Positions 928-1,715 of a stretch of DNA of 31,686 nt are shown piece by piece. Within the stretch, counting starts at the first letter, position 1, and every line of letters starts with the position of its first letter. The notes beneath the pieces are model-generated. The model ran no database searches and was not told the DNA's origin. It saw nothing but the letters and a program-made list of their open reading frames with translations. The position numbers and the translations under genes were made by a program. The DNA comes from a virus, in IMG/VR virus record IMGVR_UViG_3300037847_000575, positions 1-31,686 of that record; one strand, written 5' to 3'.

Positions 928-1080
928 CTAATCTTCTAGTCTTTTATATCTTCTTATTAAGATACTACGGACTCTCTCCCATAATTTTCGTATGGAAACT
1001 TGTTGTACTGTTATTGGGTCTCTCAATGCAATCTTGTCTAATTCCATTTTGCATTTGATAAGTTTAGTTTCTATGTTCAT
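928..1080 (-). CDS. Hypothetical early protein, 50 aa
   Basis: A 50-codon gene with the canonical early ribosome site GGAGAAAAAAATG (1078-1090). The product begins MNIETKLIKCKMELDKI, is strongly basic in its second half (RKLWERVRSILIRRYKRLED) and is probably two helices. The TAG stop contributes to the GGAG of the next gene. The inverted repeat at 1101-1256 ends only about 10 nt upstream of this ribosome site, so its translation may be controlled by that RNA structure. The function is unknown. Confidence 0.62.
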   Translation of the reverse strand: MNIETKLIKCKMELDKIALRDPITVQQVSIRKLWERVRSILIRRYKRLED

Positions 1081-1262
1081 TTTTTTCTCCTATTAGTTTC
1101 TGTAGTTCTTTTAATAAGCCTTATGTTACTACAATGAATTAAACCTACACTACTAATTAAAGTATGCCCAAAGTTTATCTTAAGGTTGCGAACCTTTTGA
1201 CTAAAGACTTCAATGTGCAATATGCTCTTCGCATAAGACTTAATAAAAGAACTACAATTCAT
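1077..1262 (-). CDS. Doubtful small ORF, 61 aa
   Basis: An open frame beginning MNCSSFIKSYAKS and ending in a basic tail (TTETNRRKK). Its TGA overlaps the ATG of the next gene as ATGA, as expected for real genes here. Against it, there is no ribosome site, and the same bases hold a 25-nt inverted repeat, a 9-bp alternative stem and a short perfect hairpin, which suggests selection on RNA structure rather than protein. An opposite-strand ORF overlaps it. It could be a real gene, an untranslated leader or both. Confidence 0.35.
   Translation of the reverse strand: MNCSSFIKSYAKSILHIEVFSQKVRNLKINFGHTLISSVGLIHCSNIRLIKRTTETNRRKK
1101..1256 (-). repeat. Long inverted repeat, probable RNA stem (arms 1101-1125 and 1232-1256)
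   Basis: The 25-nt arms match at 23 of 25 positions and are separated by 106 nt. In the leftward transcript one of the two mismatches becomes a U-G pair, leaving a single U-U mismatch. The 3' arm ends about 10 nt before the GGAG of the gene starting at 1080. The loop contains a perfect hairpin, AAGGTT-CGC-AACCTT (1182-1196). A second, incompatible 9-bp stem joins 1270-1278 (GTGCAATAT in the transcript) to 1215-1223. Confidence 0.7.
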
Positions 1263-1264
1263 GT

Positions 1265-1336
1265 TTATAAATATTGCACCAATAAAAACATTGATACATT
1301 TGTAATAAAAAGTATTAGTGCTAATTCACTAGACAT
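1265..1336 (-). CDS. Possible membrane micro-ORF, 23 aa
   Basis: The ATG overlaps the TAA of the upstream gene as TAATG, a junction used repeatedly in this genome. The 23-residue product is almost one hydrophobic segment (MSSELALILFITNVSMFLLV), which would suit a single-pass membrane peptide. It ends 2 nt before the doubtful ORF starting at 1262. There is no independent ribosome site, and an ORF this short could arise by chance, so the call rests on the coupled start and the composition. Confidence 0.3.
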   Translation of the reverse strand: MSSELALILFITNVSMFLLVQYL

Positions 1337-1533: not shown

Positions 1534-1568
1534 ATTTTTTTCTCCTTAATTAATATCTATATTCTTAT

Positions 1569-1612
1569 ACATTTATTTTACATTTGCAATACATTTATAA
1601 ACATTTTGCAAT
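1569..1612. repeat. Two tandem imperfect 22-bp direct repeats
   Basis: Units 1569-1590 and 1591-1612 both begin ACATTTAT and end TTGCAAT, differing by a few bases and a one-base shift in the middle. They are followed by an A/T-only run of about 20 bases and lie next to the decamer repeats at 1641-1670. The arrangement of direct repeats beside easily melted DNA, at the point from which transcription diverges, is typical of phage replication origins. That role is inferred. Confidence 0.5.
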
Positions 1613-1715
1613 TTTTTTTAATTTTGTTTAAATAATGGTTATTCATGAGTATTCGTGAGTAGTCATGAGTAAAAGGGTCGGTTGAGTATTCTTGTATTCC
1701 TTGAAAATTTTTCAT
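1578..1715 (-). CDS. First early gene candidate, 45 aa
   Basis: A 45-codon frame beginning MKNFQGIQEYSTDPFTHDYS and ending INVLQM, started by a perfect copy of the early ribosome site GGAGAAAAAAATG (1713-1725). It would be the first gene of the leftward early transcript. Its coding region includes the decamer repeats and one 22-bp repeat, so the DNA may serve a second purpose. The product is basic towards the C-terminus and is not recognised. The ribosome site is the main evidence. Confidence 0.5.
   Translation of the reverse strand: MKNFQGIQEYSTDPFTHDYSRILMNNHYLNKIKKNCKMFINVLQM
1641..1670. repeat. Three tandem decamer repeats
   Basis: ATTCATGAGT, ATTCGTGAGT and AGTCATGAGT follow each other without gaps. 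The consensus ATTCATGAGT recurs at exactly one helical turn, so three protein copies could bind on the same DNA face. GAGTATTC, which spans the junction of the first two units, occurs again at 1684-1691. They are a candidate iteron or operator array between the early genes and the divergent VRR-NUC gene. Confidence 0.55.

Follow-up and report, generated by a model that had tools for sequence, protein, structure and literature searches.

The long inverted repeat between two small leftward genes of this linear 31.7 kb virus contig (the window, meaning the whole stretch of DNA analysed) is a real and statistically strong stem, and a switch between two stems is not supported. From comparison with related contigs, the best reading is that the stem belongs to a lineage-specific cassette in a leftward mRNA. 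An insert bearing only a long RNA stem can apparently fill a slot used by small accessory phage genes. Following up the stem also brought to light a conserved leader hairpin that shows covariation and has no match in Rfam. The cassette nature of the junction and the covarying upstream leader are the most valuable results.

The virus is a relative of phages infecting the marine bacterium Pelagibacter, and its terminase and that of Pelagibacter phage HTVC026P share 55% identity. The minus strand of the window carries portal, capsid, tape-measure and tail genes. Small leftward genes lie at 76-1533; a VRR-NUC nuclease gene (1768-2133) points rightward, away from them. A scan for tRNA and tmRNA genes found none. 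The earlier note had seen a structured RNA segment in a gene-packed genome, and this holds: no other same-strand gap between the genes delimited here exceeds the 183-nt one that contains the stem, and the stem is highly significant. Features are collected in Table 1.

Table 1. Features at the stem-bearing junction and in the upstream leader; handles beginning with L denote related loci
Feature	Positions	Strand	Basis or remark
Insert, 172 nt	1094-1265	-	3-nt ATA direct repeat at both ends; net +175 nt relative to empty site
5′ arm of long stem	1232-1256	-	Inverted repeat and predicted fold
3′ arm of long stem	1101-1125	-	Ends ~10 nt upstream of the GGAG belonging to gene 928-1080
Small hairpin in loop, AAGGTTCGCAACCTT	1182-1196	-	Predicted fold
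Partner in alternative 9-bp stem, probably chance	1215-1223; other side 1271-1279	-	Shuffles, partial-transcript folding
Micro-ORF, 23 codons, MSSELALILFITNVSMFLLVQYL	1265-1336	-	13 IMG/VR loci, 87-100% identity
Downstream gene, 50 aa	928-1080	-	GGAG ribosome site; 96% conserved in L021-L023
Open frame, 61 codons, probably not a gene	1077-1262	-	Stop overlaps next ATG; no Shine-Dalgarno
Leader hairpin	1671-1750; 5′ arm 1740-1750, 3′ arm 1671-1681	-	Conserved, covarying; GGAG in loop
Junction content, L022/L024			70-aa gene
Junction content, L025, L039-L041, L044, L045			Gene of ~104 aa
Junction content, L046			67-aa gene
Junction content, L042/L043			C5 cytosine methyltransferase (Pfam PF00145)

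The inverted repeat is as the earlier note described it: in the leftward RNA 23 of 25 positions form Watson-Crick pairs and one more is U-G, making 24 of 25, and the distance from stem to GGAG is likewise confirmed. It is the top inverted repeat of the whole window; in 20 whole-window shuffles the best 25-nt arms matched at no more than 20 of 25 positions. Shuffled sequence had been proposed as the yardstick for folding stability, and the leftward RNA of the insert (1094-1265) exceeds it, at −46.4 kcal/mol (z = −4.9) with none of 200 shuffles equally good. RNA of the opposite strand reaches −36.8 kcal/mol (z = −4.2); the U-G pair and the lower predicted energy favour the leftward RNA. By itself the 106-nt loop is no more stable than shuffled sequence (z = −0.25), which leaves the long stem as the sole significant element; the third hairpin reported in the loop does exist but adds no significance. 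The downstream ribosome site lies outside the stem in the predicted fold and is not occluded, and the presence of the cassette leaves its GGAG about as accessible as it is where the site is empty. Relatives yielded no other strong inverted repeats, and an Rfam scan at gathering and relaxed thresholds gave nothing credible.

Relatives were found via the downstream 50-aa gene, an upstream 65-aa gene and the conserved micro-ORF. Two of them, L021 and L023, are exact empty sites: the alignment runs to 1266 and resumes at 1093 with flanks intact, and the micro-ORF MSSELALIIFIMNVSMFLLVQYL ends TATTTATAG, directly overlapping the TAGGAGAAAAAAATG of the next gene. The micro-ORF stop is TAA in the window and TAG (within TAGGAG) at most other junctions. 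Because there are both empty sites and unrelated genes at this one junction, the insert is one of the alternative cassettes that occupy a swap site, and not a conserved leader. The segment had been taken for a leader, which does not stand, as it is an insertion about 400 nt inside the operon.

Two side observations concern the same junction. The micro-ORF encodes a hydrophobic peptide, and the genes on either side of it vary across 13 contigs. The methyltransferase cassette of L042 (3075-3941) begins 2 nt past the micro-ORF TAA, without a Shine-Dalgarno sequence.

Only one genome carries the insert, and this phage holds no second copy. Searches with its DNA, with arm and arm-gap-arm patterns and with the translated frame found no homologue in IMG/VR, phages, plasmids or genomes, collections that may lack the records closest to the window, so the pairing has no covariation or conservation behind it. 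Several candidates were rejected. The sole genome-contig match (L050) is chance, antisense to a Flavobacteriales gene, as are the arm matches in L036 and L037, which lie inside a frame similar to a LAGLIDADG endonuclease gene, and those in L038, which lie in unrelated DNA. L036 (IMGVR_UViG_3300009431_000082) is an unrelated virus contig with no similarity to the window over the part compared; that both are 31,686 nt long is probably coincidence. The resemblance over 22 nt to the end of gp57 (MNCSSFI), the tail-fibre gene of HTVC026P, goes no further, and for descent of the insert from the L042 methyltransferase cassette, as its relic, there is only 'ATGAAT' and a 13-nt match.

The earlier note had proposed a switching leader with two mutually exclusive stems, which we now consider very improbable. 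The perfect 9-bp complement exists, one base away from where it had been placed, and it is completed by a GTG codon of the micro-ORF that is GTA in the nearest relatives; however, the same GTG occurs in L022 and L024, both lacking the insert, and in about 12% of shuffled inserts some 9-mer pairs perfectly with the 70-nt flank. In growing transcripts the 9-bp stem has a probability of at most 0.21 and vanishes as soon as the long stem is able to pair; for the RNA 1367-1040, even the most favourable fold that includes it costs 11.9 kcal/mol. The alternative is never dominant, and its partner falls within a micro-ORF that relatives keep without the insert. The features of a riboswitch are not seen: there are no two competing structures of comparable stability, nor a conserved aptamer with covariation, since the searches found neither a homologue of the insert nor an Rfam match. 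A pseudoknot of both stems would be strained, since a 13-nt linker must span a 25-bp helix.

A protein-coding insert is quite unlikely. It would be a real gene for a translationally coupled 61-aa protein, with the inverted repeat incidental or opened by translation. Its frame does start 2 nt past the micro-ORF stop (as the L042 methyltransferase does, also without Shine-Dalgarno) and ends in a stop that overlaps the start of the following gene; the chance of so long a frame in a shuffled insert is 0.5% per frame. Against this, the frame lacks a Shine-Dalgarno sequence and any relative in viral contigs, phages or genomes, and its codon score is under that of every real 60-codon segment of this phage, a weak criterion alone because short genes score poorly: two short conserved frames are poor too, and the conserved micro-ORF scores even lower. 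Neither the phage-like codon usage nor the homologues of a protein-coding cassette were thus found. Synonymous recodings of the frame fold at −22 ± 4 kcal/mol versus −46 kcal/mol for the actual sequence (z = −6.5), so the peptide sequence does not by itself account for the fold. RNA or passenger DNA is favoured over protein for the insert.

If the stem has any role, processing or insulation is the most likely one. We suggest tentatively, as a possibility still short of probable, that the insert is a lineage-specific cassette whose stem is processed by RNase III in a polycistronic mRNA. In the leftward small-gene operon, relatives exchange gene cassettes between the micro-ORF and the next TAGGAGAAAAAAATG ribosome site; the cassette of the window, of ~172 nt, has no convincing gene and a predicted stem with 25-nt arms closing the 106-nt loop. 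The insert would be co-transcribed with the operon, gene packing suggesting that the genes flanking the stem share one transcript. Host RNase III may then cut the stem, as happens in the early mRNA of T7 and in pre-rRNA. The cut would divide the message into an upstream and a downstream part and might free an RNA of ~110-130 nt. The stem offers the double-stranded RNA of about two helical turns expected at an RNase III site, with 24 of 25 positions paired when its U-G is counted.

The T7 early precursor RNA has five cut sites (PMC4858673). Like the RNase III stems of T7 early mRNA, the stem described here is long, imperfect and double-stranded, lies between genes of a polycistronic phage message and leaves the downstream ribosome site free; unlike them it closes a 106-nt loop and is known from a single genome, and cleavage is proposed here by analogy. 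Bacterial pre-rRNA processing stems share the long-range closing stem and the large loop, but the loop of the insert holds no recognised stable RNA and has no Rfam match.

Almost as likely as the RNase III processing stem, and so equally to be held with doubt, is passenger DNA, a functionless palindromic (MITE-like) or template-switch-derived insertion tolerated because it falls precisely into the space separating a stop codon from a ribosome site. Its occurrence in a single genome, the exact empty sites, a loop structured no more than by chance and the 3-nt ATA direct repeat at its ends all speak for this, although the repeat, as a candidate target-site duplication, is a weak signal in an AT-rich site. 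The insert resembles miniature inverted-repeat elements in being short, in carrying inverted repeats and in the brief direct repeat found at its target. Unlike in those elements, the repeats are not terminal, the arms beginning 7 and 9 nt inside the insert ends, and no cognate transposase is known. There is one copy in the genome; no further one was found in the phage, in IMG/VR pattern scans, or in phages, plasmids and the genome collection, where the arm pattern occurs only by chance.

A discrete trans-acting small regulatory RNA with the long stem as its body is unlikely. The fold is stable and rod-like (z = −4.9), cleavage by RNase III would free such a molecule, and phage sRNAs are known (reviewed in PMC12197685), which resemble the insert as structured non-coding segments of small-RNA size in a phage operon. 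The insert differs from them in having no promoter or terminator of its own; none was recognised around it on the leftward strand, in a search that covers Pelagibacter-type promoters poorly, and it has neither an Rfam match nor relatives.

About 400 bases upstream of the insert, in the same leftward operon, lies the leader hairpin, just downstream of a conserved box CACACACTAGATATAGCATAAAA beside the VRR-NUC start. The leftward transcript could well begin at this position. The stem has 7-11 bp and is present in all relatives with a complete leader (L013 ends before the 3′ arm). Four arm sequences occur: GGGUCGG/CCGACCC in the window, GGGCUGG/CCAGCCC in the L004-L020 group, GGGUGGU/ACCACCC in L021-L024, and GGCUGGUC/GACCAGCC in L025, L040 and L042-L046. 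A covariance model built from the L004-L020 group finds the other groups at the same place (E 0.0015-0.033). Both sides change at four of seven pairs among 16 distinct sequences, in an alignment fitted to the structure, and no shuffle reaches the observed values; an independent MAFFT alignment of 12 sequences gives two covarying pairs. A stem enclosing GGAG is expected by chance at 0.075 per genome. In the L025/L042 type the start codon after GGAG is absent and the GGAG is kept, so a small gene alone does not account for the loop.

A broader view, which is unlikely, is that RNA structure governs the leftward accessory operon in this uncultured phage group, with the GGAG-displaying 5′-terminal hairpin as a new leader RNA family and the insert as a swappable RNA cassette in a small-gene slot.

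Downstream of the leader hairpin, AATGT repeats occur at 1605, 1595, 1584 and 1573 (1568-1610, minus strand) with a spacing of 10-11. Relatives retain some or all of them, and they are part of the operon that holds the insert but distinct from it. They could be a protein-binding array, either an operator or iterons.
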